Below are positions 454 through 14,012 of a stretch of 33,725 nt of DNA, piece by piece. The stretch comes from a virus. The notes below the pieces were generated by a model. It saw nothing but the letters and a program-made list of their open reading frames with translations, did no database searches and was not told the DNA's origin. Numbering within the stretch: position 1 is the stretch's first letter; each line of letters opens with the position of its first letter. Made by a program: the position numbers and the translations under genes. The stretch is taken from positions 1 through 33,725 of the IMG/VR virus record IMGVR_UViG_3300009703_002891. One strand, written 5' to 3'.

Positions 454-465
454 CCGCGCCCCGTC
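432..465 (-). terminator. 12-bp stem hairpin between scaffold and capsid genes
   Basis: The arms 432-443 and 454-465 form a 12-bp GC-rich stem with one G-T mismatch and a 10-base loop that contains TTGACA. It starts 10 bases after the scaffold stop codon. There is no following T tract, so it is not a classical intrinsic terminator. It could attenuate read-through, stabilise the 3' end of upstream mRNA, or be an operator over the capsid promoter. Confidence 0.45.
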
Positions 466-474
466 CTGGTCGGG

Positions 475-1170: not shown

Positions 1171-1173
1171 AGT

Positions 1174-2514
1174 CTATTCCTCCTCAGGATCGGGATCGGG
1201 TGGATTGTCGAGCGCCTGCGCGACCTCTTCGAGGTACAGCACCCCGGGCGCCCGTTCGGGGAGATTGAGAGGTTCCATGCCCTCGGTTGCTTCCGAGGCG
1301 CGGTTGGCAATGGCGGCCAGGCGGCGCAGCACGAGGCCGTCGTGCCCCCTGCAGTCGGGGAACGTCTGAGCGATGAGCCGTTCCATGGCCCGGCGCTCGG
1401 TCTCGGTCGGGTCGCCGCCGGTGCCTTCGAAGTCGACCGGGACCCCGAGGGCCGACAGCAGGCCGAGTTCGTACAGGCGGACGGCGCGGCCCGTGACCTC
1501 GACGTCGGCCCCGGGTTTGTCCTGCCAGTGGACCGGGGCCTGTGAGGGGTTGGTTCGCTGCCAGATCACCACGGTCGACGGGCCGGTGTAGATCCCTTTC
1601 GTGTTCGTCTCGGCGTCGCTCGACGTGCCTGAGACCTCGGCGCCCTCGACGTTCCTTTGCGGGTGTCCCGCATCCCGGACACCGGCGCCCCAGTGGGTGT
1701 AGAGGGCGGCTGTCCGCAGGGTGCCCTCGACGAGCTCGATGTTTTCGTACACCTCGCGAGGGTCGCCGCTGATCACGATGCGGTGAAAGGGTCGCCCGAT
1801 CGGGAACCGGTCGGTTGGGGCGTAGCGCCAGGGGTACGCGTCGCCCTCGAAGGTGCGGCCGGTCGCGGCCTGCGTGACGTCGGTTTTGCCCTCGAAGATC
1901 CGGTAAGACGGGTCGTCGATGTTCGTCAGGTCGTACACCTCGAGCACGTCGACCGCCTTCCCGTCGATGAGGCGCCGCCGTCGATGCCGGATGACCGTCG
2001 GGGCCAACGGGTCCTCGGACGCATACTCGACGTCGAGGTCGTCGGGCGTGACCAGCTGCGCGAACGGCCGGCGGGACCGGTCGCCCCAGCTGAGGAGGGT
2101 TCCTGCGAAGTTGCACCCGAGGCGGAACCGCAGAACCTCACGGGACACCGTGAGGAGGCGCGTCGGCAAGGGGCGGCCGTCGGCCTGCGCGTAGCGGTCA
2201 ACGGTCACACTGGCCGACATATCGCCGATCATGGCGGCCAGGCGGGGGTCGAGGTCGTCGACCAGAGGGGGTACGAGGTAGGCCTGCGCCAGGCGGCCTA
2301 CGTAGGCCTTCAACGGGTTCCGAGTGAGGTCGACCGGGCCGAGGGTCGCGGCGCCCTCGCCGAGTTCGGCCTGAATCCTTTCGAGGACGTCGACCACATG
2401 ACGGCCGCGCAGCATCCTGACGCGTAGCGCCAACTCCTCACGGGGCGACCGCTTGACGTTGCCCTTGTTGCCTGGCGCCGCGAACGCGCCCCCGACCTGT
2501 ACCAGTGCGCCCAT
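1174..2514 (-). CDS. Portal protein
   Basis: This 446-residue protein lies directly downstream of the large terminase and upstream of the scaffold and capsid genes, the standard portal slot. Portals form the dodecameric ring at one capsid vertex through which DNA passes and to which terminase docks. The sequence is a mixed alpha/beta protein with a long helical C-terminal part (after about residue 340) and an acidic tail ending DPDPEEE, consistent with the SPP1/HK97-type portal build, at typical length. The ATG at 2514 is preceded by AGGAGG seven bases away, overlapping the terminase stop. The family call comes mainly from gene order and overall character. Confidence 0.75.
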   Translation of the reverse strand: MGALVQVGGAFAAPGNKGNVKRSPREELALRVRMLRGRHVVDVLERIQAELGEGAATLGPVDLTRNPLKAYVGRLAQAYLVPPLVDDLDPRLAAMIGDMSASVTVDRYAQADGRPLPTRLLTVSREVLRFRLGCNFAGTLLSWGDRSRRPFAQLVTPDDLDVEYASEDPLAPTVIRHRRRRLIDGKAVDVLEVYDLTNIDDPSYRIFEGKTDVTQAATGRTFEGDAYPWRYAPTDRFPIGRPFHRIVISGDPREVYENIELVEGTLRTAALYTHWGAGVRDAGHPQRNVEGAEVSGTSSDAETNTKGIYTGPSTVVIWQRTNPSQAPVHWQDKPGADVEVTGRAVRLYELGLLSALGVPVDFEGTGGDPTETERRAMERLIAQTFPDCRGHDGLVLRRLAAIANRASEATEGMEPLNLPERAPGVLYLEEVAQALDNPPDPDPEEE

Positions 2515-2518
2515 GGGT

Positions 2519-3952
2519 CTACCTCCTCGTGCCCTCGGTCATGTCGATGACGACGTAACGCAGGGCGTCAAGGCCATCTTTGCACGGGTCCTTTGTAGAC
2601 CCCTGCCATTCCTGAATATCCCGGCGCAGGTGAACACAGGACGGGTCGATGCTGAACCGGTCGGGCCCGTCGGCCATCATGCCGTGAAGTTCTGCGAACC
2701 CTTCCCACATCGGGTGTAGGTGTTTGGCCGGTTGATACATGCGCTGCAGGGCTTTGGGCAACTTCTCGAGCCACCGGTGCCCCTTGCCGACTTTGTGCCC
2801 GAGGGCCGAGGCAATGGCGCGCTTGAGGAAGAGGTTCGACTGCCTCGGGCCGTATGACGATTTGGAGTGTGCCCGGTCGCCGATCCAGACGTCGATATCG
2901 CGCAGGTCGTAATCGCCTCCGAGGAGGGGGCCGGCCCGGTCGATCATGTCCAGGACACCCCGGGCGTGGTCCTCGGTTTTCGACGAGGTCGCTTTGTACT
3001 CGGCGACGACGTGCACGGGGGCGATCGGTTTGCGGCGGTTGCACGCGATGAGGGCGGCCCGGGTCGCGCCGGGTTTGTTGCCGTAGTCCAGGCCGATCCC
3101 GAGATCCCACCCGTTCGACACATCGCGGGTGCGGACCAGGTGAGGGCCCCAAACGCGCATGAAAAACGCGGTGTCTTTGACGGGGTAGCGACTGCGCCCC
3201 ATACGCATCTCTACGGACAAGGCCGATAGGCCGCCTTCGAGGTCGTCGATTTCTTGCTGCGTGACCCACGGAACCTCGACGATTCCCCCGCGGGGGGTCA
3301 CGGCATCGAGGGTCAGGGGAACGTGGATCTCACCGGCGAACGGCTTCGACTGGTCGTCGACGAGATCCCAGAGGTAGTCAAGCTTCGTACACGTTCCCAT
3401 CGTGGGCGTGAACCCGACATACATCCGGCCGCCCCGACCGAAGAGGCGCGGCCAGAGCTCGTCGTGCACGTCACGGGGCAGGGGCTCGTCGGTGATCACC
3501 ACTTCGGAGCGGGGGCCGGCCAGGGTCTCGGCGTTGAAGACGGCGCACACGAGGGTTGACCCCTTCCCGGGGCCGCCGACGATGTCGTACACGGTTTCGC
3601 GTTGGCCCTTTAGGGCGCCGTCCTCGAATCGGACTTTCGGCCTAAACCAGGATTTGTCGACCGACTTCCACAAGTATCCCAGGGTCGCCCCGATTTGCTT
3701 CCACGTTCGGCCGGCCAGGATGACGACCCGTGACCGGGAGTTCTGCCAGTGCAGGGTGCCCTCGATGGCCCGGCGCACGAGCTCGGCCAGGACGACGGAT
3801 TTCCCGATGCCGTTCGCGCCCCAGGCGACCGTGAGGCGGTAGTCGGATTCGAGGATCCGGCGTTGGGGGTTCGTCCAGCACCGGACAGGCACACCCCGGG
3901 CAAGCGCCCGACGGCGCCGCGCACCCGTGACCAGGGCGCGCCGCGCGTTCAC
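2519..3952 (-). CDS. terL: Terminase large subunit
   Basis: This 477-residue packaging motor combines an ATPase with a nuclease. Walker A is WGANGIGKS at residues 44-52, Walker B with the catalytic acid is VVITDE at 151-156, and GFTPT near 180-184 fits the coupling motif. The C-terminal RNase H-like nuclease has candidate metal ligands Asp289 (GLDYG), Asp359 (GDRA) and the Asp pair in the final KDGLDALRY segment. I place the start at the GTG at 3950-3952, which overlaps the upstream gene's stop as GTGA, because upstream residues look like read-through. The product cuts concatemers and drives DNA into proheads. The neighbouring TerS candidate and portal support this. Confidence 0.93.
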   Translation of the reverse strand: MNARRALVTGARRRRALARGVPVRCWTNPQRRILESDYRLTVAWGANGIGKSVVLAELVRRAIEGTLHWQNSRSRVVILAGRTWKQIGATLGYLWKSVDKSWFRPKVRFEDGALKGQRETVYDIVGGPGKGSTLVCAVFNAETLAGPRSEVVITDEPLPRDVHDELWPRLFGRGGRMYVGFTPTMGTCTKLDYLWDLVDDQSKPFAGEIHVPLTLDAVTPRGGIVEVPWVTQQEIDDLEGGLSALSVEMRMGRSRYPVKDTAFFMRVWGPHLVRTRDVSNGWDLGIGLDYGNKPGATRAALIACNRRKPIAPVHVVAEYKATSSKTEDHARGVLDMIDRAGPLLGGDYDLRDIDVWIGDRAHSKSSYGPRQSNLFLKRAIASALGHKVGKGHRWLEKLPKALQRMYQPAKHLHPMWEGFAELHGMMADGPDRFSIDPSCVHLRRDIQEWQGSTKDPCKDGLDALRYVVIDMTEGTRR

Positions 3953-4179
3953 CTCGGCGCCGTCGTCGTAAACCACCCGGAATCCCACCACCCGAACCGC
4001 GTGTCGACCATCCACCCCGACCCGCAATTGCGCTGCGACCGGATCGCTATGACCGACACGGGGCGGCCTTCCTGGCCGCGGGGCGGGCCGCCGGGATTGT
4101 CGACAACCCACCACACAGTCGCGCCGACCTTGAAGGGGGGCGACGGTTGCCGGGTGATCGGTAGGTTTTCAGCTGCCAC
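3949..4179 (-). CDS. Small hypothetical protein between terminase genes
   Basis: This predicted protein has 76 residues and is rich in Trp, Gly and Val (VGATVWWVVDN near the N-terminus, FGWWDSGW near the end), which suggests a small beta-barrel or SH3-like fold. The GTG at 4177-4179 is eight bases after GAGGGG; a TTG at 4183-4185 that overlaps the upstream TGA is the alternative start. The 3' end overlaps the terminase start by 4 bases, so translation is probably coupled. I do not recognise the family. Its position suggests a packaging accessory role, which is inference only. Confidence 0.6.
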   Translation of the reverse strand: MAAENLPITRQPSPPFKVGATVWWVVDNPGGPPRGQEGRPVSVIAIRSQRNCGSGWMVDTRFGWWDSGWFTTTAPR

Positions 4180-4181
4180 CG

Positions 4182-4592
4182 TCAATCCCCCTCGACCAGG
4201 CGCAGGCCCACACGGCGCAGGGTCGGCGGCGAGGTCGTCCCGTCGAAGGTGAGGCCGAGGCGCCGCGCCCACTCGATGACGTACCGTTCGAGGTCGTCAT
4301 CACTTGCCGCGGCCGCGTCCTCATCGATGAGGGTCCCCCACTCCTCGGGGGTCATGGCCTCGGGGGCGGCCTCGTCGGCCTCTTCGACGGCCGCGCGTTC
4401 GGCGGCGCGTGCGAGGTCGTATTCAAGGCGCAGGGATTGGCCCTGGCGATGCAGGGCGGCGACGGCCGACCACGATTCGCATTTGCGGGCCGCGCGGCAG
4501 TCGGCGGCGACCTGGCGTCCTGCCTTCTGCAGCCAGCGTTTCCGGGCCGGGTCGGGCGGGGGTAGGCCGCCGTGGCCTTTGCGGCGTGGCAT
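4182..4592 (-). CDS. Possible terminase small subunit
   Basis: This 136-residue protein has a basic N-terminal third (residues 1-60, many Arg/Lys, helical, plausible DNA-binding segment), an acidic Ala/Glu-rich middle and a C-terminal helical segment (EWARRLGLTF). Small terminase subunits bind the packaging site through an N-terminal helix-turn-helix and oligomerise through a helical centre. This size and order fit that design, and the gene lies two genes before the large subunit. The ATG at 4590-4592 overlaps the preceding TAA by one base (TAATG). No diagnostic motif is visible, so the call is by context. Confidence 0.4.
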   Translation of the reverse strand: MPRRKGHGGLPPPDPARKRWLQKAGRQVAADCRAARKCESWSAVAALHRQGQSLRLEYDLARAAERAAVEEADEAAPEAMTPEEWGTLIDEDAAAASDDDLERYVIEWARRLGLTFDGTTSPPTLRRVGLRLVEGD

Positions 4593-4819
4593 TAGCGGCC
4601 CCCGTCGAGGGTTTGGCGCAGCATGATGACGACATTGTCGGCCGCGGTGATCACGCGTTCGGCGGTCGCCCTGGCGACAAGATGACACCCCGGCGCCGCT
4701 GCCATCACACGCAACCCACACGAGGCCAGCGCCGTAGCGACGGCGCTCGGGTCGATCGGTTCACCGTCGCCGCGTTCGACCTCGAATGTGTAGCGGCGTG
4801 CGGTCGGCGGCCCGCTCAC
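4592..4819 (-). CDS. Small hypothetical protein
   Basis: This protein has 75 residues starting at the GTG at 4817-4819, which overlaps the stop of the upstream gene as GTGA. The sequence shows a beta-rich N-terminus (RRYTFEVERGDG) and an amphipathic C-terminal helix. No known domain is recognised. It belongs to the chain of overlapping small genes ahead of terminase and is probably co-translated with its neighbours. Confidence 0.6.
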   Translation of the reverse strand: MSGPPTARRYTFEVERGDGEPIDPSAVATALASCGLRVMAAAPGCHLVARATAERVITAADNVVIMLRQTLDGGR

Positions 4820-5283
4820 GATGCGCCCCCGTCGGGCGCCGCTTCGAGGGCGGCGACCAGGGCCGCGGCCTCGGTCGGGGCGATAGCTTCGACGCGCCAC
4901 CCATCCGAGCCAGGGTTGAGGCGTTGAACCAGCCAGTCTTTGTCTGCAGGGCAGAACTCGGTCGAAAGAAGCTGATCACTCCAAGCATCCCGAACCAGCG
5001 ACCGCAAGCATCCGACGGTCGCCGGGTCGGTGAGGTCGGGCAAGTAGGGAAGCCGGAGCCTTCCCCGACCCGAGGACACAAATACCAGTTTCCCGGCCTG
5101 GTCGCGCATCCCTCGCCACTCGCCCTCGACTCGGCCCCGCTGCTCGAGCAGGCGCACGCCAGGCAACCAGGATGTCAGAGGCACGCACGCAACGGCGCGC
5201 GCGCCGAGGGCGGCCAGGCCCCCGCGGGGACCCTCTTCGGGCGCGGTTGAGGCGACCCCATTTTTAGCATCGTTCACATCCAC
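4816..5283 (-). CDS. Hypothetical protein, 155 residues
   Basis: The GTG at 5281-5283 follows AGGAGG with eight bases between, so this start is well supported. The product looks globular: a beta-containing middle (residues about 65-82), then a helical segment starting DPATVGCLRSLV and an Ala-rich C-terminal helix. It has no membrane segment or recognised motif. It lies between the replication-side small genes and the terminase region; its function is unknown. The last bases overlap the next gene as GTGA. Confidence 0.65.
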   Translation of the reverse strand: MDVNDAKNGVASTAPEEGPRGGLAALGARAVACVPLTSWLPGVRLLEQRGRVEGEWRGMRDQAGKLVFVSSGRGRLRLPYLPDLTDPATVGCLRSLVRDAWSDQLLSTEFCPADKDWLVQRLNPGSDGWRVEAIAPTEAAALVAALEAAPDGGAS

Positions 5284-5296
5284 GGTATTACCCTCC

Positions 5297-5662
5297 TCAT
5301 GGAAATAGTAGACCCTCGGGGGGGTCGAGAATCGACAAGCTATCTACCACCGGGCTCCCTACCCCCCCCGGGGGGGGTCTATGGGCCTCGGGCCCGCCCT
5401 CGGCGCCCTGGTCGGCCCCTCGGCCTCGGGTCGCACCGTCGGGCGGCGACGGGGCGGCGCCCGGGGCCGGCGATGTGGCGGCCTCGTGGCGTGCGTGCTC
5501 CGTGTACTCTTCGAGAGTCAACTCTATGAACTCGGCCGCGTCGGCCATCCGGTGTTCGACCTGCTCTGCTAGGTGGTTGCGCAGCTTGAGGCGCGCCAGG
5601 GCGGCGCCGGCCTCGGCGATGCGTTGAAGGTGCCAGGCCGTTCGGTCGCGGGGTTCACCCAT
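5297..5662 (-). CDS. Hypothetical protein with disordered Pro/Gly tail
   Basis: This 121-residue protein has a helical N-terminal half (residues 3-62, with an amphipathic heptad-like pattern) and a low-complexity Pro/Gly/Ala tail. The tail is encoded by homopolymer-rich DNA, including a C8G8 palindrome. The ATG at 5660-5662 overlaps the upstream stop by 8 bases. The stop codon runs into the next gene's ribosome-binding site (TGAGGAGG). The homopolymers make a frameshift or assembly error in the tail possible, so the exact C-terminus is less certain than the N-terminal half. No function is recognised. Confidence 0.6.
   Translation of the reverse strand: MGEPRDRTAWHLQRIAEAGAALARLKLRNHLAEQVEHRMADAAEFIELTLEEYTEHARHEAATSPAPGAAPSPPDGATRGRGADQGAEGGPEAHRPPPGGVGSPVVDSLSILDPPEGLLFP
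5362..5377. repeat. C8G8 homopolymer palindrome
   Basis: Eight C then eight G form a 16-base perfect palindrome, 18 bases with the flanking A and T. A G7 run lies 38 bases away at 5318-5324. On the plus strand, 5370-5392 also fits a four-run G-quadruplex pattern (the G8 counted as two runs, then GGG and GGG with short loops). Such tracts are prone to slippage and to sequencing error. Confidence 0.8.
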
Positions 5663-5930
5663 CGGCGCCCCCAAACCGGCCCGCGATGGCCTCGCACTCG
5701 GCCCCGAGGGCAAGCGCAGGCCCCGGATCCCCTCGAAGCGACGTTGCCACGGCCCGCAGAATCCGCGACTGCATGGCCTGGTCGGCCGCGTCGATGGCCG
5801 GCGACGCGGCGACGGTGTCGAGGACCGTCGCTGCTCGCGCCGCGACCTGGCGACCGAGGTAGCCGCGCAGGTACGACCCGACGCCGAACGACACGCCGCA
5901 GGCACACAGCAAAAAACAGAGTTCACCCAC
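5655..5930 (-). CDS. Small membrane-anchored protein
   Basis: From the GTG at 5928-5930 the product has 91 residues. The first 25 are hydrophobic (VGELCFLLCACGVSFGVGSY), a likely single transmembrane segment, followed by a helical Ala-rich soluble part. Upstream in-frame starts (GTG 5939, ATG 5990) would lengthen the hydrophobic region but lack a clear ribosome-binding site and would overlap the preceding gene more. Function is unknown; an inner-membrane role such as superinfection exclusion or lysis control is possible but unsupported. Confidence 0.5.
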   Translation of the reverse strand: MGELCFLLCACGVSFGVGSYLRGYLGRQVAARAATVLDTVAASPAIDAADQAMQSRILRAVATSLRGDPGPALALGAECEAIAGRFGGADG

Positions 5931-6129
5931 GGCGCCACCCACAGCCAAGTTGAACCAGGGCCACGGTATCAACCGGGGTCCGGTCATCATCGAAGCATAG
6001 AATCGGTTCGCCTGGCCAGGGCCTCGACACTCGGCGCCCGAGGATCGTCGGCTTGCCCGGGTTCGCCTTGTCGTCGAGGCAGTCGAGGATCGCCTGCCTC
6101 ACCTGGCGCGCGCGTTCGGCGGTCGTCAT
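5923..6129 (-). CDS. Small hypothetical protein
   Basis: This 68-residue protein starts at the ATG at 6127-6129, eight bases after a strong AGGAGG. It is helical at the N-terminus (AERARQVRQAILDCLDD) and beta-rich at the C-terminus, ending VALVQLGCGWRRG. No family is recognised. The start overlaps the stop of the tiny upstream gene as ATGA, and the gene overlaps the next one by 8 bases, which supports translational coupling. Confidence 0.6.
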   Translation of the reverse strand: MTTAERARQVRQAILDCLDDKANPGKPTILGRRVSRPWPGEPILCFDDDRTPVDTVALVQLGCGWRRG

Positions 6130-6227
6130 CGTTTCGCCCTCCTCTTCGGACAGTTTGACCCGGCCTGGCGACCACATGCCGCACAACGGCCACCCCTGCT
6201 CGCCAGGGGGATGCAGGGCCACGTCAT
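6126..6227 (-). CDS. Tiny Cys-rich protein, possible zinc knuckle
   Basis: This 33-residue protein has four Cys spaced C-x9-C-x2-C-x8-C (residues 5, 15, 18, 27) and a basic C-terminus (CPKRRAKR), the look of a minimal zinc-binding nucleic-acid protein. The ATG overlaps the upstream stop and its own stop overlaps the next start, both as ATGA, and GAGGGG lies upstream of the start. It is short, so chance cannot be excluded. The alternative is a GTG-started extension of the following gene in another frame. Confidence 0.45.
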   Translation of the reverse strand: MTWPCIPLASRGGRCAACGRQAGSNCPKRRAKR

Positions 6228-6376
6228 CGCGACCCCTCGGCGCGGTTGCGCCTGCGCCGTTCTGCAGCTGCCTGGCGCACCGTCCACAGAGCGCTACAGA
6301 ACCACCCGAGGGAGAACACCCCGGCGGCCATGAGAGGCCACCATAGGGCGCCCCAGGGTGCGACGGGACCACTCAT
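6224..6376 (-). CDS. Small single-pass membrane protein
   Basis: This 50-residue protein has a clear hydrophobic stretch at residues 9-32 (ALWWPLMAAGVFSLGWFCSA) followed by a strongly basic tail (ERRRRNRAEGSR), so an N-out, C-in single-pass topology is likely. Both ends overlap neighbours as ATGA. The function is unknown. It is far from the amidase, so a holin role is less likely than a membrane-interference role, though neither can be shown here. Confidence 0.6.
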   Translation of the reverse strand: MSGPVAPWGALWWPLMAAGVFSLGWFCSALWTVRQAAAERRRRNRAEGSR

Positions 6377-6591
6377 GGGATCGCCTCGACCATGTGGTCG
6401 AAGGCTTTCACCTCGTCGACGAGCCAGCGGATACCGGCCTGTACCCGACGGCGGGTATGCCGGTTCTCTGACTGCTCTAGACATCGGCACGGGCCCGAGT
6501 GTCCCTGGCCTCGGGGCCGGCCAGGCACGAGCAGGACACAGGCGGCCGAGGCGCACCGGTGCGGGTTTTGTGGTCGTGTGGGGCCACTCAC
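6373..6591 (-). CDS. Small Cys/His-rich protein, possible zinc binder
   Basis: This 72-residue protein starts at the GTG at 6589-6591, overlapping the upstream stop (GTGA). The first half carries candidate zinc ligands: His12, Cys14, Cys19, then GHSGPCRC with a His and two Cys. The C-terminus is an amphipathic helix (RWLVDEVKAFDHMVEAI). A small zinc-binding protein that contacts nucleic acid or protein is plausible. No family is recognised. Confidence 0.5.
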   Translation of the reverse strand: MSGPTRPQNPHRCASAACVLLVPGRPRGQGHSGPCRCLEQSENRHTRRRVQAGIRWLVDEVKAFDHMVEAIP

Positions 6592-7046
6592 AACCACGCC
6601 CGCACAACCAGGCCGAGGAAGGCCAGGGCCAGCACCAGCACCCCGGCCCCGTGCATCAAAGCGGCCAGGGCGAGGAAGGGGCGGACGTCGAGGGGGCGAG
6701 GGGTGTCGATGGTGTCCGCCTCGGGGTCGGGTTGAAACGCTGGATCATGGGCTGGATCCCAGGCCAGGCGCGCCCCGATGCGGTCGGCGGCCGGGGCGAG
6801 AAAGGGGCGGTTTGTCGATTCGTTGTCGATTGGCGCCGCGGTTGCCGGGCCAACCTCACGGTCTGAGGCCTGCGCGGGACGGGCGGCGAGTTCGTGAAGT
6901 AGGTCGACGAGGTCGTCGCCTTTGTAGGTCGACCCCATCCACCCGCCCCCGGTCTGGTCTTCCCCGACCTCGAGCAGGATGGCCGCGGCCGCATTCAGGG
7001 CGGCCCGATCGGCGTCTGACACGAGCATGTAGCGGGGGCCGGTCAC
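6588..7046 (-). CDS. Hypothetical protein with C-terminal membrane anchor
   Basis: From the GTG at 7044-7046 (overlapping the upstream stop as GTGA) the product has 152 residues. A soluble N-terminal region, with a helical segment rich in Ala/Leu and a KGDDLVDLLHELAA helix, is followed by a Pro/Ala-rich linker and a C-terminal hydrophobic helix of about 22 residues (HGAGVLVLALAFLGLVVRAW). This is a tail-anchored layout. Function is not recognised. Confidence 0.6.
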   Translation of the reverse strand: MTGPRYMLVSDADRAALNAAAAILLEVGEDQTGGGWMGSTYKGDDLVDLLHELAARPAQASDREVGPATAAPIDNESTNRPFLAPAADRIGARLAWDPAHDPAFQPDPEADTIDTPRPLDVRPFLALAALMHGAGVLVLALAFLGLVVRAWL

Positions 7047-7348
7047 AGGGACGCCCCGATCTGGCACCACAAGCGATCCCCCGGGTTCTTCACTCGAAGG
7101 TCCGAGAACGGCCCTCCAAACTGGCGCAGGCTCCCGTCGAACTCGACCTCGACCACCTTCTCACCAGGCGGCAACATCGCAGGCAGCAGCCCATAGCGCC
7201 AGGGGCCGACCCGATGCGCAGCCATGCGCATAGCGACCTTGTCGGTATCTGCGTCGGTGTCGGTGTCGGTGTCCGTGAGGGCGACCGTCGCGTCGACGGC
7301 CGCCTCGACAAGGTCGGTCAAAAGGGTCTTGATCTCGTGGGGTTTCAT
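7043..7348 (-). CDS. Hypothetical protein with Thr-Asp repeat
   Basis: This 101-residue protein starts at the ATG at 7346-7348, close behind CCTGAGGAGGA. Residues 28-39 are a Thr-Asp repeat (TDTDTDTDADTD) encoded by 6-base units, separating an N-terminal helix from a C-terminal beta-rich part (VVEVEFDGSLRQFGG). The protein is otherwise unrecognised. The repeat could vary in copy number between relatives and act as a flexible acidic linker. Confidence 0.65.
   Translation of the reverse strand: MKPHEIKTLLTDLVEAAVDATVALTDTDTDTDADTDKVAMRMAAHRVGPWRYGLLPAMLPPGEKVVEVEFDGSLRQFGGPFSDLRVKNPGDRLWCQIGASL
7241..7276. repeat. Hexanucleotide tandem repeat (GTCGGT)
   Basis: There are six adjacent 6-base units; four are exact GTCGGT (7241-7246, 7253-7270) and two are variants. 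They lie in frame inside the gene at 7043-7348 and encode alternating Thr-Asp. Because the unit is a multiple of three, copy-number change would keep the frame. Confidence 0.8.
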
Positions 7349-7368
7349 GGGTTCCTCCTCAGGAATCG

Positions 7369-7647
7369 CTATCGTTGTGTGTGGTGCCTGCGTTCGCCTC
7401 GCCAGAATCCCCGCGGGTATTCGCAGGTCCCGACGTCCTCGCCGATCGGCCAGTCGAGCAGGAACCAGAGGCCGAGGGCTACCCGGATCTCGGCCAGGCA
7501 TCGGCGCGACCCGAAACGGCGGCGCAGGAAGGCGGCCGGGTCCATCCGCAGAAGTTCGTCGATCGTGGTGATCCGCATGTTCGTGAGCTCGTTGTGAGCC
7601 CGAACGGACAAATCGAGGACGTCGATCGGGGTCGTGGCGTCGGTCAC
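7369..7647 (-). CDS. RNA polymerase alpha-subunit C-terminal-domain-like protein
   Basis: From the GTG at 7645-7647 (GTGA overlap with the upstream stop) the product has 92 residues. Residues about 6-60 follow the alpha-CTD pattern: a PIDVLDLSVRAHNELT segment matching the LxLSVRxxNxLK helix, then ITTIDELL, then FGSRRCLAEI matching the G+KSLxEI helix. The Arg and Asn that in E. coli alpha (R265, N268) contact DNA are present. One extra residue lies before the final helix. Such a standalone domain could bind UP-element-like DNA or compete with host alpha for activators. A non-transcriptional helix-hairpin-helix DNA-binding role is the alternative. The domain resemblance is seen; its function is inferred. 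Confidence 0.65.
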   Translation of the reverse strand: MTDATTPIDVLDLSVRAHNELTNMRITTIDELLRMDPAAFLRRRFGSRRCLAEIRVALGLWFLLDWPIGEDVGTCEYPRGFWRGERRHHTQR

Positions 7648-7859
7648 ATCGACCCCGCAACGAGGGCGAGCACGCCCCCGAGGTCGGTCCACAGGATCGC
7701 CGGCAAGGGCCGGCGGCGAGGGACCGAAGGCACCGACACGAGGGTTCGGCGCTCGTGTTCGGCCAGGATGCGGCGCAGGTCGGCGGCCGCGCGCTTTGCC
7801 TCGGCCGGGGTCAGGTCAGGGATAGCGGCCAGGCCTGCGCGGTAGTCGTCGAGGTTCAC
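7644..7859 (-). CDS. Small hypothetical protein
   Basis: This 71-residue protein starts at the GTG at 7857-7859, overlapping the upstream stop as GTGA, and its own stop overlaps the next start the same way. The N-terminal half is a helical Ala-rich segment (TPAEAKRAAADLRRILAEHERR). The C-terminus is mildly hydrophobic (ILWTDLGGVLALVAGSM). It is not recognised. Confidence 0.55.
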   Translation of the reverse strand: MNLDDYRAGLAAIPDLTPAEAKRAAADLRRILAEHERRTLVSVPSVPRRRPLPAILWTDLGGVLALVAGSM

Positions 7860-8602
7860 GAGTCCATCCTGCGGATCGTCGGGAGGTCGAGCACGGCCCC
7901 CTCGGGGTTCGGGATCGCTTCGATCGCGGCCCGCGCGCTCCCCTGCAGGCGCCTGGCTGCGTGCAGCTGGACGACCCGGGGTTTCGCGCTCCGGTAGGCC
8001 CCTCGAAACGAGTGGCGCACCGTGGTGATCGGGTCCCGGTTGCCTCGCCAGTTGGCCGCGTCAAGCCAGGCCTGAGGGCCCCCGACCGCTTCGAGGGCCT
8101 GCAGGGCCGCCTCACGACGAGCAGGGGGCCCCGACAGGCGCGAGCCGATCAACTGGCGCAGGGCCGGGACGAGGCCGCCCCGGCGGCCCTCGGGGTCCTC
8201 CTCGACCCCCTCGGGAACCAGGGCGGCCCATTGCTCGGGGTTGCCGTGCAGGATCGTCACGGCGAGATCGTCGACGACCCGTTTCACGTCGCCCCATGCC
8301 TCGTCGGCGTCATCGACCAGGGGGTCGACCCGGCCAGGGACGCGCGCCAGGATGAGACCCGGTTGCGGGTAGCGGCTGCAGACCTTCGGATCGCGCAGGT
8401 ACGATCCCAGGGCCGAGGCCAGGCCCTCGTCCGACACGTCCTCGGTCAGACCGAGCCAGAGGTTCGCGACCCGCTGTTTCGCCAGGCGGCGCACGTCGGG
8501 CGAGTGGGCGTCGAGGGATTTCGGGGCGCCTTTGAAGGCGTCCATGAGGCCGGCCGCTTCGAGGCCGGCGAGGAATGCCAGGATTCCGGTTTTCGTGGTC
8601 AT
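7856..8602 (-). CDS. Possible replicative helicase loader-like protein
   Basis: This 248-residue protein begins with an ATG that overlaps the upstream stop (ATGA). Its middle has a segment of the form PQPGLILARV followed about 14 residues later by EAWGDVKRVV, and near residue 195 a WRGNRDPITTVRHSFRGAYRS block. This arrangement resembles helicase-loading or replisome proteins of phages, which couple an initiator to the host helicase. The gene lies two positions after the probable initiator. No Walker motif is present, so it would be an ATPase-independent loader. The resemblance is weak and the family name is inferred. Confidence 0.4.
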   Translation of the reverse strand: MTTKTGILAFLAGLEAAGLMDAFKGAPKSLDAHSPDVRRLAKQRVANLWLGLTEDVSDEGLASALGSYLRDPKVCSRYPQPGLILARVPGRVDPLVDDADEAWGDVKRVVDDLAVTILHGNPEQWAALVPEGVEEDPEGRRGGLVPALRQLIGSRLSGPPARREAALQALEAVGGPQAWLDAANWRGNRDPITTVRHSFRGAYRSAKPRVVQLHAARRLQGSARAAIEAIPNPEGAVLDLPTIRRMDS

Positions 8603-9354
8603 GTGGACACCTCGAAGGGGCCGCCCTCAAGCCACCATCCGGCGGCCATGGCGGCGCGGTCGGCGGCGGCTTTGCCGTGGTCGCCGGTTTCGGGGCCTTT
8701 CTCACGGGTCCACTCAGCCTGCCCGGCGTAGGCGTACCAACAATGCCACCCATCATCGTCGACCCCGTAAACGTCGCGTCCACCCTCCATACGCAGGTGA
8801 GGAAAGGAATTGGTCCCATTGTCGTCTACCCATGGAGCCATCGCCCCCAACACCGGCAACCCCCTCGCCACCCGCAACGCCGCCCACCGCAGCGCGGCGG
8901 GCTTGTCGCGGGCCCAGGCGATGTCAGCGGGCGGTCGGACTGCCGCAGCGATCGCGCTATGCCCCACCTGAGGGTGACTATCGGCGCATCGATGCTGCCA
9001 ACCATCGCACCAGCGCCACGTGCCGTCAGAGCCCGCAAGCGATCCGCACGCGGGGCAACTTGGATGGACCGTGCACGGTGAATCGCCCTCCTCGATGGTG
9101 CAGGCGCACCGCTCACCCTCAGCCGCCCACCGCACGATGCGGTCGCGGACCGGCGCCCACGCCAGGTTGATCGTGACCAGCTTCGGGATCGACACCCGAT
9201 AGCCGCTGGTTCCGTCAACAAACCGGAAAACCCCTGGTCCCTCGCGAGGGCACTCCAACCACAGGATCATAGGGCGCCCGTCGACGTTGACAGGGCCGAC
9301 CCATCCGGCCAGGATGCCCGGCAGATCGCCGGCTTGAATCGTCTTGATCGTCAT
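8599..9354 (-). CDS. Hypothetical protein with Cys/His cluster
   Basis: This 251-residue protein starts at the ATG at 9352-9354, seven bases after AGGAGG that overlaps the upstream stop. Residues about 83-125 hold a Cys/His cluster (Cys-Ala-Cys, CTVHPSCPACG, WCDGWQHRC), consistent with one or two zinc sites. The C-terminal part is Trp-rich (GWHCWYAYAGQAEW, AAGWWLEGG). The role is unknown; its place between initiator and loader candidates suggests a DNA replication or modification task. Confidence 0.6.
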   Translation of the reverse strand: MTIKTIQAGDLPGILAGWVGPVNVDGRPMILWLECPREGPGVFRFVDGTSGYRVSIPKLVTINLAWAPVRDRIVRWAAEGERCACTIEEGDSPCTVHPSCPACGSLAGSDGTWRWCDGWQHRCADSHPQVGHSAIAAAVRPPADIAWARDKPAALRWAALRVARGLPVLGAMAPWVDDNGTNSFPHLRMEGGRDVYGVDDDGWHCWYAYAGQAEWTREKGPETGDHGKAAADRAAMAAGWWLEGGPFEVST

Positions 9355-9366
9355 CGTGTGTCCTCC

Positions 9367-10785
9367 TCAGAACTTGACGTCGAACCACTCCGCAGGATCG
9401 CGGATCGGCGGTTTCCATCCCGGCGGGGGTCCGCCGTTCGGGGGTGTCATCGGGGCCGGCCAGTCGGCCGAGGGCTTCCCTGCCTCGGCCCACTGCAGGG
9501 CAACCCGAACTCGGTCTTCCCACCGCGTCGAGGCGGCCAGGGTCGACACGGATTGAGACCGATCGACGCCCTCGGGCCAGCCGACGGCCCGCACATCACG
9601 GGCGAATAGCGGGTGCGGGCATGTGTGCGCCGCCTCGGCGACCTGGCGCGCGTCCTGCGACCACTCGGCCAGGTCGGGCCACTCGAGGGCGCGCAGTAGG
9701 CTGCAGACGGCCCGCGCCGTGGTGCGAGGCACGACGTCGGGAAGGGTGCGGCCCTTGCCCTCGATGTGGCGCCAGGGGCGGCCGGTCACTCGGGCGGTGA
9801 ACTCGCCGACGGCCGAGGCGAGGTCGGCGCGGTCGATTCGTTTCGGCCAGGTTCCCCAGCTGGAAGGGGCGCGGGGGCGCTTTGGGCGGATGGTGGGGGC
9901 GACCTGCTCGCCAGGATCGCCAGGCGACGACGTCGGGCGCGGCGTTTGGCTGCCCCTGACCGCTTTCGCCTGGCCATCTACCGGCCCCGTCGGGCCTGGT
10001 CGGCTGCGGCGCGGCGGCGACGGTGGAGCTCCACCCGAGCTCTGGTTGCCCTCGGACGCATCGCCAGGGCTTCGAGCAGTCGGGCCTCGGCCTGCGCTGA
10101 ATCGTGGGCGCGCTGATTCTCGGCTGCGGTTCGGGGGGGCGTCGTGTCGATCGGGAGGGCTTTGTTCATCGGTCGGGCCTCGGGGGTGAACGGCGGGGGC
10201 TTCCCCCGGCGGTGTGTGTGTGTCTGGTGACTGGTGACTGGTGTCTGGTGTAAGGAAACGCGCGCGATCGGGACCCTGGCGGGACCCTGGCGGGACCCTG
10301 GCGGGACCCTGGCGGGACCCCCGACCTACATCCAACGCCGCAGATCGCGCAGTACGCGGGACCCTGGCGGGACCCTGGCGGGACCCTGGCGGGAACCTGG
10401 CGGGACCCTGATCGAAGGGGTCGCGCCACACATCCGACTTGACGAGGTTCCTGGCGACTTTCGCGCCGAGACCCGAGACCGCAACCAGCATTCGGCGACC
10501 CGGGGGCCTGGCCGACAACGCCGCGGCCTGCATCTTGACCGGCGCCGAGTCAGGCACCCAATAGGCCCGGCCCGCGGCCGAGGCGCGCATCGAGTAGCGG
10601 AGCCATGACAGGGCGGCGCCGAGGGGCCACGGCCGAGGCAGGGCCCCCCACATGGCCTGCAGCCACTCGTCCTCGACGCGTTCAAATCCCATCGACAGCG
10701 ATCCAGGGAACCACCCGCCCCGAGTTGCACCCCGGGACGGGTGGGCGGCCCACATCGTAGGGGCCGATTCGAGTAGCCGGTGCAA
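9367..10785 (-). CDS. Probable replication initiator carrying iterons
   Basis: This 472-residue open frame is used in full from a TTG at 10783-10785; later in-frame ATGs (10755, or before GFERVEDEW) are possible starts, as no ribosome-binding site is clear. Residues 32-125 look like a winged-helix replication domain (EDEWLQAMWGALP, then GLGAKVARNLVKSDVWRDPF). Residues about 125-200 are a low-complexity GSRQGPARVPP repeat region encoded by 11-base direct repeats. After a disordered Pro/Ser/Arg-rich stretch comes a folded C-terminal domain (residues about 310-470). An origin inside the initiator gene is the lambda O arrangement. The winged-helix call is by eye. Confidence 0.55.
   Translation of the reverse strand: MHRLLESAPTMWAAHPSRGATRGGWFPGSLSMGFERVEDEWLQAMWGALPRPWPLGAALSWLRYSMRASAAGRAYWVPDSAPVKMQAAALSARPPGRRMLVAVSGLGAKVARNLVKSDVWRDPFDQGPARFPPGSRQGPARVPRTARSAALDVGRGSRQGPARVPPGSRQGPDRARFLTPDTSHQSPDTHTPPGEAPAVHPRGPTDEQSPPDRHDAPPNRSRESARPRFSAGRGPTARSPGDASEGNQSSGGAPPSPPRRSRPGPTGPVDGQAKAVRGSQTPRPTSSPGDPGEQVAPTIRPKRPRAPSSWGTWPKRIDRADLASAVGEFTARVTGRPWRHIEGKGRTLPDVVPRTTARAVCSLLRALEWPDLAEWSQDARQVAEAAHTCPHPLFARDVRAVGWPEGVDRSQSVSTLAASTRWEDRVRVALQWAEAGKPSADWPAPMTPPNGGPPPGWKPPIRDPAEWFDVKF
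10211..10250. repeat. GT run plus four 7-bp direct repeats
   Basis: A short (GT)n tract (10211-10222) is followed by four adjacent heptamers of the form (T/A)CTGGTG at 10223-10229, 10230-10236, 10237-10243 and 10244-10250. They lie 19 bases from the 11-bp repeat array and within the initiator gene. They may be part of the same replication origin. Confidence 0.75.
10270..10320. repeat. Iteron-like array 1 (11-bp units)
   Basis: There are four perfect adjacent copies of GGGACCCTGGC (from 10270, 10281, 10292, 10303) and a partial fifth from 10314. The 11-base unit is not a multiple of three, so selection on the DNA itself, rather than on the protein, is suggested. An 11-bp period puts each unit on nearly the same face of the helix. 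Confidence 0.9.
10358..10411. repeat. Iteron-like array 2 (11-bp units)
   Basis: Three perfect copies of GGGACCCTGGC start at 10358, 10369 and 10380, a fourth (10391) has one mismatch, and a fifth (10402) diverges at its end. The spacing from array 1 is 37 bases. A GATC lies at 10266-10269, another at 10343-10346 and another at 10410-10413, flanking and between the arrays. Confidence 0.9.
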
Positions 10786-10801
10786 CGGCTTGAAGTCTCA
10801 T

Positions 10802-10828
10802 CGTGTACGACGCGGCCCCGGCTGTCAA
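10802..10828 (-). promoter_or_regulatory. Possible promoter of the initiator gene
   Basis: Reading leftward, TTGACA at 10823-10828 overlaps the end of the methyltransferase gene. It is followed by GTCGTACACGATGAG, which resembles the -10 region of the capsid promoter (GTCGTATGGCTGAG). The -10 match (TACACG at 15-base spacing or CACGAT at 17) is weak. The short gap before the initiator gene makes a promoter plausible. Confidence 0.35.
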
Positions 10829-11736
10829 CCGGTGCGCCTCGTCGTGTGAACCAGGATCTCGCCCACTGGCGCCCGCTTCGATGTGTCCGAGTTCACCGTC
10901 CCGGGCCGCTCGATGCGTGTCACGTGGAACGGTTCGACCGACCACATCGCGACCGCCTCAGGGCAACCCGAGTTCGACACGATGACGTGCACCCCTCGGG
11001 CGGCCAGGTCGAGGGCGATCGACCTCAGGCGCAAGTGGTCGTCGAAGCCGAACCCCTCGGGGGTGTAGCCGTCGAAGTCGCCGAGGTATGGCGGGTCGAA
11101 GTACACGAGGTCGCCGGCTTCTACCTTGTTGAACAAGGTCGACCGGGACGAGGCGAATAGCCCCAGCTGCGCGCGCGCGGTTGCCTGCTCGACAACGGGA
11201 ACCCCGTCGAGGGCGACACTGCAGGCGCGAATCAAGTCGGCGTCGACTTTGACCTCGAGCGGCGCACCGTTGGCCGACTTCCCGGCGGCGACGTTCGGCG
11301 CGCCGGCCTGGTTGACCCTCCACAGGCCATTAAACCCGAGTTGCTGGTGCGCGATGAGGGCGGCTGCGACCCTCGGCGAGGGGTGCGTAGCAGCGTCGGC
11401 CAGGAACGCGCGCAACGACTCGAAGAGGCCGGCGACGACCTCGTCGCGTTTCATCGTCGCGGCCAGCTTCAGGGGCCAAAGGTCGCGCAGCTGCCGAATC
11501 ACCTCCTCGGGGTCGTCCCGAATGCCCCGATAGGCCTGTACGACCGCCGGGGCCGCATCGGCGAGGACCGCGCCCCCTTCGAGGCGCCCCTGCGCGGCCA
11601 GGTCGAAGAACATCGCGCCCCCGCCGACGAACGGGTCGAAGTACCGCCCGAACTCAGCAGGGACGACTCGACGGAGCTCGGGGAGTAGGGCGCGCTTGCC
11701 CCCGACCCACTTCCACAAGGGAGCGGGGGCGGTCAT
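10825..11736 (-). CDS. DNA adenine N6-methyltransferase (Dam/D12 class)
   Basis: This 303-residue enzyme would transfer a methyl group from S-adenosylmethionine to adenine. The D12-class marks are clear: WVGGKRALLPEL at 10-21, the SAM-binding FDPFVGGGAMFFDL at 33-46, FNGLWRVN at 135-142, and the catalytic DPPY at 214-217. The length is normal for the family. There is no paired restriction gene, so it is a solitary methylase; likely roles are evading host restriction or marking the origin. The recognition site cannot be read from sequence; GATC is typical of Dam relatives. The ATG overlaps the stop of a 17-codon upstream frame as ATGA. Confidence 0.92.
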   Translation of the reverse strand: MTAPAPLWKWVGGKRALLPELRRVVPAEFGRYFDPFVGGGAMFFDLAAQGRLEGGAVLADAAPAVVQAYRGIRDDPEEVIRQLRDLWPLKLAATMKRDEVVAGLFESLRAFLADAATHPSPRVAAALIAHQQLGFNGLWRVNQAGAPNVAAGKSANGAPLEVKVDADLIRACSVALDGVPVVEQATARAQLGLFASSRSTLFNKVEAGDLVYFDPPYLGDFDGYTPEGFGFDDHLRLRSIALDLAARGVHVIVSNSGCPEAVAMWSVEPFHVTRIERPGTVNSDTSKRAPVGEILVHTTRRTG

Positions 11737-11786
11737 CGGCCGACCGGCGACGTCAGGATGCCCGAGGGCGGATTGCGGGTGTTCAT
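11733..11786 (-). CDS. Possible 17-residue leader peptide of the methylase gene
   Basis: This short frame (MNTRNPPSGILTSPVGR) starts at the ATG at 11784-11786, six bases after GGAGA, and its stop overlaps the methyltransferase start as ATGA. The methylase start itself has no strong ribosome-binding site, so reading the leader could deliver ribosomes to it. The frame is short enough to arise by chance. Confidence 0.4.
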   Translation of the reverse strand: MNTRNPPSGILTSPVGR

Positions 11787-11801
11787 CGTGTTCTCCGAAG
11801 A

Positions 11802-11818
11802 GGGGGCGAGGCGCCCCC
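11802..11818 (-). terminator. 7-bp hairpin after the J-domain gene
   Basis: GGGGGCG and CGCCCCC pair around a 3-base loop, 8 bases after the stop codon of the J-domain gene at 11827. On the minus strand the downstream side is TCTTCGGAG, with no run of T. It could act as a partial terminator or mRNA-processing structure. Confidence 0.35.
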
Positions 11819-11826
11819 GGGTTGAA

Positions 11827-12858
11827 TCAGGCCGCCGACGACTCGCCGCGCAACCCCGAGGCCATGCCCTCGAAGAGACGCAGCTGATCACCGCCGAGAA
11901 ACCCGAACTCGGCCAGGCGTTCGGGGGTGTCTTCCCGGCGCAGGGCTTCGACGACGACCTCGGCCACCTCGGGCGAGGTCACGCCGAACGCGGCCACCTC
12001 GGCCGCGAATGCTTCGACGTCGTGGGCGACCACGCGCAGGCGCAGGTCGACGACCTCGAAGTGATTCAACTCGTGGAAGATCATGCGCCGCCGTTCGTCG
12101 TGGGTCGCGGCCATCCACCACGACAGGGCGATGTCCAGCGTTCCATACGGCGGCGCGCCCCCGGCGCCGTTCATCCGAGCTCGGTCGCGGTCGGACACAC
12201 GGCGCGAGTGGCCGATCGCTACCCGCCCCTTCGACTTCCACGGATCCCTACGCCACGTCCACCCGATGCCCTCGGGGTGATCGTGCAACCAGGCGGCCAG
12301 GCGGGGGAAGTGGTCGCGGTAGTCCCGAACGACCTCGTCGAGGATCGACCACACATCGAGGGATTCCAGGCCCTTGACCTCGCGCAGGGCCTCACCGGCG
12401 AGGAACCGAGGCAGGCCGACGACCGACACGCCCTCGGATCGCTGCAGGGCGTCTTCCCCCTCGGCGGCCATGGCGTCGGCCAGGGAATCGCGCAGCAGGA
12501 TAACCGCGCAGGGTTCGACGGGCGACACGAACGGGCGCCGATCGTCTGACTTCAACCAGGCCTCGTGCTTCCCCCCGTCGGCTTCGAGGTACGCCCGATA
12601 TTCCCCACACGAGGACGGGTTGTAGAGGGTCCCGTATGCCTCCATCACGGAGCGAAAGCGCCGCTCTTTGCGGTCGCGTTCCTCGACGGTGCTGGCCGTC
12701 TCGGGGTGCGAGTCGGCGACACACTCGCGCCAGGCGCGGCGCACCTTGTCGGCGTCGGGGTAGTCGAACTTCAACGACGACTGATCGACGCCGATTTTGA
12801 GCCCGAGCACGCCGTAGAACGACGGCGCCTGAAGATATTGGGGTTTGTTCTTAGCCAT
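11827..12858 (-). CDS. J-domain / HExxH metallopeptidase fusion protein
   Basis: This 343-residue protein combines two recognisable parts. Residues 13-91 match a DnaJ J-domain: FYGVLGL opening, helix II (VRRAWRECVADSHPE) with HPE at 51-53 in place of the usual HPD, then FRSVMEAYGTLYNP and EYRAYL. Residues about 240-300 hold HELNH (262-266), a zincin HExxH, with His279 (AHDVEAF) as third ligand, resembling the putative phage metallopeptidase family. J-domains stimulate DnaK ATPase; the HPE change may weaken that. The protein could target a chaperone client or host factor for cleavage. The 8-base overlap with the RuvC-like gene indicates coupled expression. Domains are seen by eye; function is inferred. 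Confidence 0.7.
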   Translation of the reverse strand: MAKNKPQYLQAPSFYGVLGLKIGVDQSSLKFDYPDADKVRRAWRECVADSHPETASTVEERDRKERRFRSVMEAYGTLYNPSSCGEYRAYLEADGGKHEAWLKSDDRRPFVSPVEPCAVILLRDSLADAMAAEGEDALQRSEGVSVVGLPRFLAGEALREVKGLESLDVWSILDEVVRDYRDHFPRLAAWLHDHPEGIGWTWRRDPWKSKGRVAIGHSRRVSDRDRARMNGAGGAPPYGTLDIALSWWMAATHDERRRMIFHELNHFEVVDLRLRVVAHDVEAFAAEVAAFGVTSPEVAEVVVEALRREDTPERLAEFGFLGGDQLRLFEGMASGLRGESSAA

Positions 12859-13351
12859 TCACGGCCCTCCGGTTGTAGAAAAGGCGCCCATACAGGGCGA
12901 GGCAGGCCGCGTCGACGATCCCCTCGTGGGGGACTCGGCAGCGGGCCGGGATGAGTGGTAGCCGGGGCAGGGTCGCCTCGACGTGCGCCAGGGCGTCGGC
13001 CTTTGTTTGGCCGCCCTGCAGGGGCAGGCCGAGGCCGCGGCGCCATTCGTTCGGCGTGACCTCGAGGACGTCGAAGCCGGCGCACCGCAACACGGCGCGA
13101 ACCTCGCCGAATGACCGATGCATCCCGGCGACGGCCTTCGCCGACCTGGCGCCGCCGGGGCGCTCGATGAACGCGACGACGCCAGGGGAACCTGCAGGGG
13201 TCGATCGCCACCATCCGGCGACGAGGTCGCGCAGTCGTTCGGGGTGTTCGTGGTAGCCGTCGGGGCCGTCGGCCCTGGCCGCGAACATCCCGACGAACGG
13301 GTCGAGGCCCACGATCCCCCCGGCCGCGCCGGTGTCAACCCCGAGGATCAC
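12851..13351 (-). CDS. RuvC-like Holliday junction endonuclease
   Basis: This 166-residue protein starts at the GTG at 13349-13351, overlapping the repressor stop as GTGA, with VILGVDTGAAGGI holding the first catalytic Asp. FIERPG supplies a Glu, GFDVLEVTPNEWRRGLGL matches the conserved VTPxxW segment, and HEGIVDAACLALYG near the C-terminus gives the last Asp. This is the RNase H-fold RuvC-like family common in phages, which cleaves branched DNA before packaging and recombination. The length is typical. A longer frame upstream is open but lacks family similarity, so I prefer the GTG start. The partner for recombination is probably the RecT-like protein encoded rightward. Confidence 0.82.
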   Translation of the reverse strand: MILGVDTGAAGGIVGLDPFVGMFAARADGPDGYHEHPERLRDLVAGWWRSTPAGSPGVVAFIERPGGARSAKAVAGMHRSFGEVRAVLRCAGFDVLEVTPNEWRRGLGLPLQGGQTKADALAHVEATLPRLPLIPARCRVPHEGIVDAACLALYGRLFYNRRAVNG

Positions 13352-13560
13352 GTCGAGGCCTCGGCCGCCGGGGGCACGAGTTCGGCGGTCTCGACTCCGC
13401 AGTGTGCAGCGATGACCGGCAACCAGGACGCCCGACACGAGCTCGTCCCGGCTTCGATGCGGTGCAGCTGTTGACGAGTGATCCCCAGGACGCGCGCCAG
13501 GGCGACGACTGAGACTTCCGCGGTTCGGCGCGCGCGCCGTATTCGTTGGCCGGTGTGCAT
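13348..13560 (-). CDS. Xre/Cro-type helix-turn-helix repressor
   Basis: This 70-residue protein is essentially one DNA-binding domain: RIRRARRTAEVSVVALARVL, then GITRQQLHRIEAG, the Xre-family recognition helix pattern, at residues 6-41. It lacks any dimerisation or cleavage domain, so it is nearer to a Cro-like or minimal repressor than to a full CI. It sits first in the leftward unit, divergent from the rightward operon, and its predicted transcription start coincides with the ATG at 13558-13560. The likely target is the palindrome at 13591-13614. It is the main candidate for the regulator of the early switch. Confidence 0.8.
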   Translation of the reverse strand: MHTGQRIRRARRTAEVSVVALARVLGITRQQLHRIEAGTSSCRASWLPVIAAHCGVETAELVPPAAEAST

Positions 13561-13566
13561 GGCCTG

Positions 13567-13595
13567 ACGGTAGCGAGGGGGCGCCGATCCGTCAA
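13567..13595 (-). promoter_or_regulatory. Leftward promoter of the repressor gene
   Basis: Reading leftward, TTGACG (13590-13595), 17 bases, then TACCGT (13567-13572). The transcription start expected about 7 bases beyond falls on the A of the repressor ATG, giving a leaderless message like lambda cI from PRM. The -35 box is nearly consensus; the -10 box is weak. Confidence 0.55.
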
Positions 13596-13614
13596 GTCGG
13601 GCGGGACACTTGAC
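13591..13614. promoter_or_regulatory. Palindromic operator candidate in the switch region
   Basis: GTCAAGT (13591-13597) and ACTTGAC (13608-13614) are exact inverted 7-mers separated by 10 bases. They overlap the -35 boxes of both divergent promoters, so a repressor dimer bound here would block both. A similar half-site, GTCAAAT, follows at 13650-13656, at the rightward start codon. The most likely ligand is the adjacent Xre-type protein. Confidence 0.5.
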
Positions 13615-13638
13615 ACGCGGCGCGCGTCGCGTTCTATT
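13610..13638 (+). promoter_or_regulatory. Rightward promoter of the RecT operon
   Basis: A perfect TTGACA (13610-13615), a 17-base spacer and TCTATT (13633-13638, four of six consensus positions) precede the first rightward gene. The predicted start lies about 10 bases before the ATG at 13655, next to the GGAGG ribosome-binding site at 13646-13650. This is the strongest promoter match in the window. Confidence 0.7.
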
Positions 13639-13654
13639 CGTGGCCGGAGGTCAA

Positions 13655-13735
13655 ATGCGCGAACACATCGAAGCGGCGGCCGGGGTTGCCCTGCTCGTCT
13701 CGTCCTGGTTCCTTGTCATGTCGGTGCACCTTTGA
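13655..13735 (+). CDS. Tiny single-pass membrane protein
   Basis: This 26-residue frame starts 4 bases after a perfect GGAGG and directly behind the rightward promoter. The product has a short charged N-terminus (MREHIEAAA) and a hydrophobic helix (VALLVSSWFLVMSV), so it could insert in the inner membrane. The stop overlaps the next gene's TTG as TTGA. Tiny first genes of phage early operons often meddle with host membranes, but no family is recognised here. Confidence 0.5.
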   Translation: MREHIEAAAGVALLVSSWFLVMSVHL

Positions 13736-14001
13736 GCGCCCCGCAGATCCGGCCCCGAGGGGGCGGCCTGGTCGTCACTGTCTCGGGCACGATTAAGGGC
13801 TTCAAGTTTGAGGCCGGCGATATCCTGGCCTGCACGTCGAAACAGCGAACCCCCGTATCGATCGGGGTCATCACGGCCCCGGCGACGTGGCCATGCCTGG
13901 CGACGCCCGACGATACCGAGCAGGCGACCCTCGACGTCGTCGGCGTCATCCGGGGGCGCCGCTGGTTGACCCTCGACGACCTGGCCGGCGGCCAGCTTTG
14001 A
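13732..14001 (+). CDS. Small hypothetical protein
   Basis: This 89-residue protein starts at a TTG overlapping the previous stop (TTGA). The sequence has a beta-strand-rich pattern (GGLVVTVSGTIKGFKFEAGD, then VSIGVITAPATWPCL and DVVGVIRGRRWLTLDDL) and may be a small beta-barrel. There is no recognised family. It belongs to the rightward operon and ends with the stop 12 bases before the next ATG. Confidence 0.5.
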   Translation: MSAPQIRPRGGGLVVTVSGTIKGFKFEAGDILACTSKQRTPVSIGVITAPATWPCLATPDDTEQATLDVVGVIRGRRWLTLDDLAGGQL

Positions 14002-14012
14002 CCCCCCGCCCC

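Follow-up and report, generated by a model that had tools for sequence, protein, structure and literature searches.

What might a virus gain from encoding the C-terminal domain of the RNA polymerase alpha subunit (alpha-CTD) as a protein of its own, apart from the enzyme to which this domain belongs? The question is raised by an open reading frame (ORF) at 7369-7647, on the minus strand of a virus record of 33,725 bp that was analysed over its whole length and is referred to here as the window. The ORF runs from a GTG at 7647 to a stop at 7369-7371 and comprises 92 codons. The upstream ORF at 7644-7859 (minus strand, 71 aa, no family) has a stop that shares letters with this start (GTGA), an arrangement that suggests translational coupling between the two, and the G+C content of the codon positions in the frame of 7369-7647 (0.69/0.52/0.80 over 7369-7692) resembles that of the other minus-strand genes of the window.

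According to a Pfam scan, the 92-aa protein matches PF03118 (RNA_pol_A_CTD) with 36.7 bits (E 3.5e-9; cut-off 23.8), and the domain is placed at residues 5-58 (7474-7635, minus strand). In the same protein no second Pfam family was found at E≤1, a threshold that the general helix-hairpin-helix (HhH) families did not reach either; likewise, Pfam returned no partner domain and no alpha N-terminal assembly domain (alpha-NTD), and the matches of full-length RpoA models to the protein lay far under the cut-off. All 20 sequences listed by phmmer in a search against solved structures were RNA polymerase alpha. When the window protein was withheld from an alpha-CTD HMM, this HMM scored it at 33.3 bits, compared to 8.3 bits for the best of 5000 shuffles of it and 2.8 bits for the best other among the 465 stop-to-stop frames of the window.

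A structure model was obtained from a 54-row alignment that included alpha-CTD relatives, on which the prediction leaned; its mean pLDDT was 76.5, and for residues 1-60, taken in blocks of ten, the values were about 82-95. Helices were predicted at residues 15-23, 29-34, 37-42 and 48-58. The C-terminal tail (residues 64-92; 7372-7458, minus strand), with its basic end RGFWRGERRHHTQR, was modelled with low confidence. All 50 matches listed by Foldseek against the PDB were RNA polymerase entries, the best at E 1.9e-3 and none reaching 0.001. VIA-align superposed the model on a Streptomyces alpha-CTD with Z 9.2 (rmsd 1.7 over 57 residues), on many others with Z around 8-9 and on 3n97, an alpha-CTD/sigma-4/DNA entry, with Z 8.0; the first entry in the VIA list from outside RNA polymerase, a chain of a RAD51 complex, ranked 49th (Z 6.9). 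The superposition sets residues 1-63 on E. coli 250-312, which corresponds to a numbering offset of 249. A gapped alternative, placing RFG on N-L-G, was rejected, as the helix limits of the model and the structural alignment run ungapped. Profile and predicted fold thus identify the product of 7369-7647 as a true free alpha-CTD domain. A preliminary description of this DNA had proposed a standalone alpha-CTD-like phage protein, and this proposal is borne out by the profile comparison with the RpoA C-terminal family, by the modelled superposition and by the residues discussed below; an unrelated HhH protein as best match, lacking the Arg and Asn, which had been named there as the contrary case, was not obtained.

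The gene is viral, because the record is essentially a complete circular map. Positions 1-300 overlap with 33147-33446 at 95%, 375-472 with 33521-33618 at 100% and 473-578 with 33620-33725 at 99%, and this imperfect end overlap of ~580 bp points to a map of about 33.15 kb that is circularly permuted and essentially complete. Host contamination was considered and rejected, given the overlapping ends and the finding that the gene at 7369-7647 is the sole PF03118 match in the record. The two ends, 1-578 and 33147-33725, look as if derived from slightly different variants.

The gene content of the window (68.4% G+C) includes a terminase, a tape measure, a tail protein, a Dam methylase, a metallopeptidase, an amidase, RecT, a RuvC-like resolvase and an Xre regulator. 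The alpha-CTD gene belongs to a leftward gene run, with DNA-metabolism genes on one side of it and the terminase on the other; the first recognised gene of this run is the Xre/HTH_31 regulator at 13348-13560 (minus strand). On the upstream side, beyond the overlapping ORF, lies a 248-aa ORF (7856-8602, minus strand), and downstream a 101-aa ORF (7043-7348, minus strand) whose ATG follows a ribosome-site-like stretch, GAGGAGG; neither has a family match of weight. Further along the run, an ORF without a family match (4182-4721, minus strand) stands just ahead of the terminase large subunit (TerL; 2519-4114, minus strand, assigned by phrog_2 and relatives), in what is probably the small-subunit position. 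Two other features of the window were recorded. Between the Dam gene and 8599-9354, about 12 copies of the 11-bp unit CGGGACCCTGG occupy 10269-10410 and adjoin a 7-bp array at 10211-10251, possibly representing iterons or a mobile repeat. The ORF at 11827-12858 (minus strand) joins a phage metallopeptidase domain to a DnaJ-like N-terminal part, the DnaJ match being under the Pfam cut-off.

With regard to DNA contact, Arg265, Asn268 and Glu302, which we take to be DNA-contact positions of E. coli alpha, correspond to R16, N19 and E53 of the window protein (codons of R16-N19 at 7591-7602, minus strand, by structural and sequence alignment). Apart from Arg265 and Asn268, the DNA-contact set takes in Cys269, Asn294, Gly296, Lys298, Ser299 and Glu302, residues that membership of the domain family does not call for; at these the window protein has E20, F45, S47, R49, C50 and E53, respectively; of these six Glu302 alone is identical, and the change of Lys298 to Arg is conservative. 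The second hairpin, RFGSRRCLAE (residues 44-53; 7489-7518, minus strand), holds both the altered equivalents of Asn294, Gly296 and Ser299 and the retained Glu302.

These positions can be compared with those of other viruses. A scan of viral contigs with the window protein alone returned no relatives; a scan with three alpha-CTDs gave 116 candidate stretches, of which 91 were confirmed and 80 kept. Sixty of these loci and the window protein constitute alignment A4 (61 rows; 20 near-copies or cut frames were dropped), and alignment A6 comprises 53 relatives, seven more having been left out (five with domain length changes, plus L014 and L053). In A6, Arg265, Asn294 and Glu302 are each present in 53/53 viral relatives, Gly296 in 52/53, Ser299 in 51/53, Cys269 in 42/53 and Asn268 in 39/53, counts that are inflated because the 80 loci were found with two alpha-CTD motifs; the motif-independent counts are 38/38 for Arg265, 24/38 for Asn268, 13/13 for both Asn294 and Glu302, 12/13 for Gly296 and 11/13 for Ser299. 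Judged by these alignments, the window protein conserves the DNA-contact surface in its first half but not in its second. The alpha-CTD pattern with the DNA-contacting Arg and Asn, as put forward in the preliminary description, therefore stands as regards R16 and N19, and fails at E20 and in the second hairpin (F45, S47 and C50). Since the DNA-contact set is partly changed, the domain alone would be expected to bind DNA weakly and to rely on a partner or on the basic tail.

All 61 A4 proteins match PF03118, while 14/61 match Sigma70_r4 (E≤0.01) and 5/61 match HTH_3; RpoA N-terminal families are absent among the best 25 of the 34 families listed for these proteins. Ten viral proteins picked by eye as fusions were examined closely, and nine of them (which owing to this choice is not a rate) combine sigma region 4 with an alpha-CTD, both over the Pfam cut-off, whereas the tenth combines an alpha-CTD with a weak Mor-like match. 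Some of the fusions carry an Xre domain ahead of sigma region 4. Fusions of sigma region 4 and alpha-CTD were observed at L012:3527-4198, L013:3569-4201, L014:2946-3806, L017:3329-4201, L018:3071-4309, L019:3542-4189, L023:2939-3709, L029:3605-4270 and L034:1763-2494, and one viral protein (L072:3575-4285) shows two tandem matches to the alpha-CTD profile. Sigma region 4 and alpha-CTD sit on the -35 and UP DNA (3n97; PMC2613000). A promoter-related role is supported because viral relatives fuse the alpha-CTD to sigma region 4; a literature search found no paper on such viral fusions.

The position of the gene bears on which promoters could be concerned. In the window, 3.36 kb separate it from the TerL gene that follows downstream in the same orientation. 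Among 50 records, taken as the longer members of a set of 79, 17 had a recognisable TerL, or 16 once the near-copy G037 was dropped; a same-strand alpha-CTD gene at most 4 kb upstream of TerL occurs in 3/16 of these other records, compared with 0.78 expected if random, with the 4-kb limit having been chosen after the distances were seen, and the gene is on the opposite strand from TerL in 6/16. In two of the three (L096:2674-3294 and L097:7691-8077) the alpha-CTD gene is followed by a small-subunit-like ORF and then by TerL. The position leans towards a late-operon regulator role, the statistic being weak (3/16). By position such a regulator would resemble phage late-gene activators of the ArpU/RinA kind; the window protein has no Pfam or PHROG match to an ArpU/RinA-like family.

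We favour, at a probability of roughly 0.45, the reading that the protein is an accessory phage alpha-CTD working with a partner, be it host RNA polymerase, sigma region 4 or a phage regulator. The free domain would bind upstream DNA in the company of one of these partners, its own affinity for DNA being presumably low and dependent on that partner or on the basic tail, and would thereby help the host polymerase to initiate at promoters of the phage, in the first place at those of the packaging or late genes that come after the alpha-CTD gene. The window protein is perhaps a late-gene activator. Several results speak against this reading: other records of the terminase lineage are without PF03118, the position statistic is weak and includes opposite-strand cases, A/T-rich targets and an excess of sigma-70-like promoters are missing, the equivalents of Asn294, Gly296, Ser299 and Cys269 are altered, and Pfam returned no partner domain. 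If such proteins redirect host RNA polymerase, phages would be using a domain-sized part of the polymerase in trans.

In another, unlikely, explanation the fold would serve purely as an HhH module for binding DNA in replication, recombination or packaging and would have no part in transcription: the alpha-CTD genes of L096 and L097 adjoin terminase genes, the gene of Mycobacterium phage Marley1013 gp51 comes after a helicase gene, and the fold is reused outside RNA polymerase in PglW of BREX (PMC12839542), the PglW model NF033442 matching the window protein at E 3.4e-4. However, PF03118 outscores the general HhH families, none of which reaches E 1 for the window protein, and fusions with sigma region 4 and with Xre domains are frequent among relatives.

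A free domain without an alpha-NTD, in which Arg265, Asn268 and Glu302 are retained, could also act as a decoy or dominant-negative protein that takes activators, sigma region 4 or UP DNA away from the alpha-CTD of the host and so lowers host transcription, which would turn the proposal of the preliminary description into one of inhibition. This we consider rather improbable, as positions 259, 261, 285, 286 and 288, which we take to be sigma and CRP contacts in E. coli, are mostly altered (D259V, E261D, T285D, E286P and E288A), and as the gene is embedded in a long run of genes and not in an evident host-takeover block. The promoter side was addressed within the window itself. Over 24 bp, the A/T content peaks at 0.67, compared with a mean maximum of 0.68 in 20 Markov-1 simulations, so that no A/T-rich UP-like stretch beyond random expectation is present in the window, a hint against A/T-rich UP targets, which were set aside; sigma-70-like promoters in 1-18000 amount to one found versus 0.8 expected, although a G+C-rich host may use other sequences. 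The earlier suggestion that host activators or UP-element promoters are diverted to phage promoters is consequently unsupported by the sequence, A/T content being no higher than simulated, the activator and sigma contacts being mostly altered and the DNA contacts partly so.

How the gene came to be in this virus was approached through the terminase lineage. When TerL was used as a single query, neither viral contigs nor genome contigs yielded a relative, and isolate phages gave no tblastn match to TerL or portal. With the window, the alpha-CTD records G033 and G024 have seven proteins in common, at identities of about 19-32%: TerL, portal, a capsid-like protein, two proteins of the tail region and two others. 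A scan with three TerL proteins yielded 110 relatives, of which 80 were kept; the 30 tested for PF03118 were the longer ones of these 80 loci, some of them fragments, and 2/30 carry it, namely the already known G033 and G024. PF03118 was absent from the 28 other records (0/28; 18/28 of these negatives at least 24 kb long), and the search is sensitive enough for a copy like that of the window because it finds the window's own divergent copy. A conserved core role in the lineage is thereby rejected, and the gene is accessory in it, as none of the 28 other records carries it. The alpha-CTD gene has probably been gained more than once, since the partner regions differ (a 114-residue leader in L071, an HTH in L077). 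A further reading, under which the alpha-CTD gene came in by horizontal transfer and persists as a decaying or neutral leftover that does little, might be drawn from its absence from 28/28 other lineage records tested and from the changes at DNA-facing positions that are near-invariant in relatives; it is quite improbable, the frame being intact, the composition coding-like, start and stop overlapping and the fold core confidently predicted. Alongside the favoured reading of an accessory alpha-CTD acting at phage promoters, a broader proposal seems possible if somewhat doubtful: the alpha-CTD alone, with Xre domains or fused to sigma region 4 may form a portable toolkit for redirecting RNA polymerase, made of promoter-reading pieces detached from the host enzyme. 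Of this toolkit the window protein would represent the smallest version, and its altered DNA face would direct it, in a genome of 68% G+C, to promoter sequences that are not A/T-rich UP elements.

Among isolate phages, tblastn with the window protein returned nine weak records (E 0.3 or worse) and no close relative; one of these, AlanGrant gp89, was dropped as it is without PF03118. Many isolate "phage" records that gave strong alpha-CTD matches (Listeria, Staphylococcus, Enterococcus, Salmonella, Acinetobacter and fecal scaffolds) were host rpoA-like or unannotated and were not used as phage evidence. PF03118 is present in Bacillus phage Goe8, in Microbacterium phage Morrill (gp24) and in Marley1013 (gp51). 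No PHROGs alpha-CTD family was returned for any of the 11 viral alpha-CTD proteins scanned, that of the window included, and one of the 10 others matches an unnamed PHROGs family outside the domain; the group is thus easy to overlook in phage annotation. In the literature searched, no functional study of a phage alpha-CTD protein was found.

Compared with RNA polymerase alpha, the window protein shares the profile, fold and helix boundaries of the alpha-CTD, together with Arg265, Asn268, Glu302 and an Arg for Lys298, but it is without alpha-NTD or linker, has an extra C-terminal basic tail and differs at the equivalents of Asn294, Gly296, Ser299 and Cys269. With the viral sigma region 4 fusions it has the alpha-CTD in common, whereas sigma region 4 and, in some, the Xre domain are theirs only. 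In BREX PglW the alpha-CTD-like domain likewise lies outside RNA polymerase, but within a multi-domain defence protein of 1400-1600 residues. Morrill gp24 and Marley1013 gp51 are small actinophage proteins that, like the window protein, carry PF03118; by alignment, the N-x-G hairpin is retained in them and the Glu302 position changed, and they have extra regions. The Goe8 "RNA polymerase subunit alpha" is by sequence a phage-borne alpha-CTD, longer (210 aa) than that of the window, and the BFVD rows named alpha-CTD (Mycobacterium phage Mithril and Rhodococcus phage Finch), alike by fold match and name, are longer as well (98-240 aa). ORF40 of Erythrobacter phage vB_EliS-L02, alike by name, is called an alpha-CTD protein in a genome report (PMC9127768). 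The kind of protein is therefore already named in databases and in one genome report, and the window protein adds a member to it.
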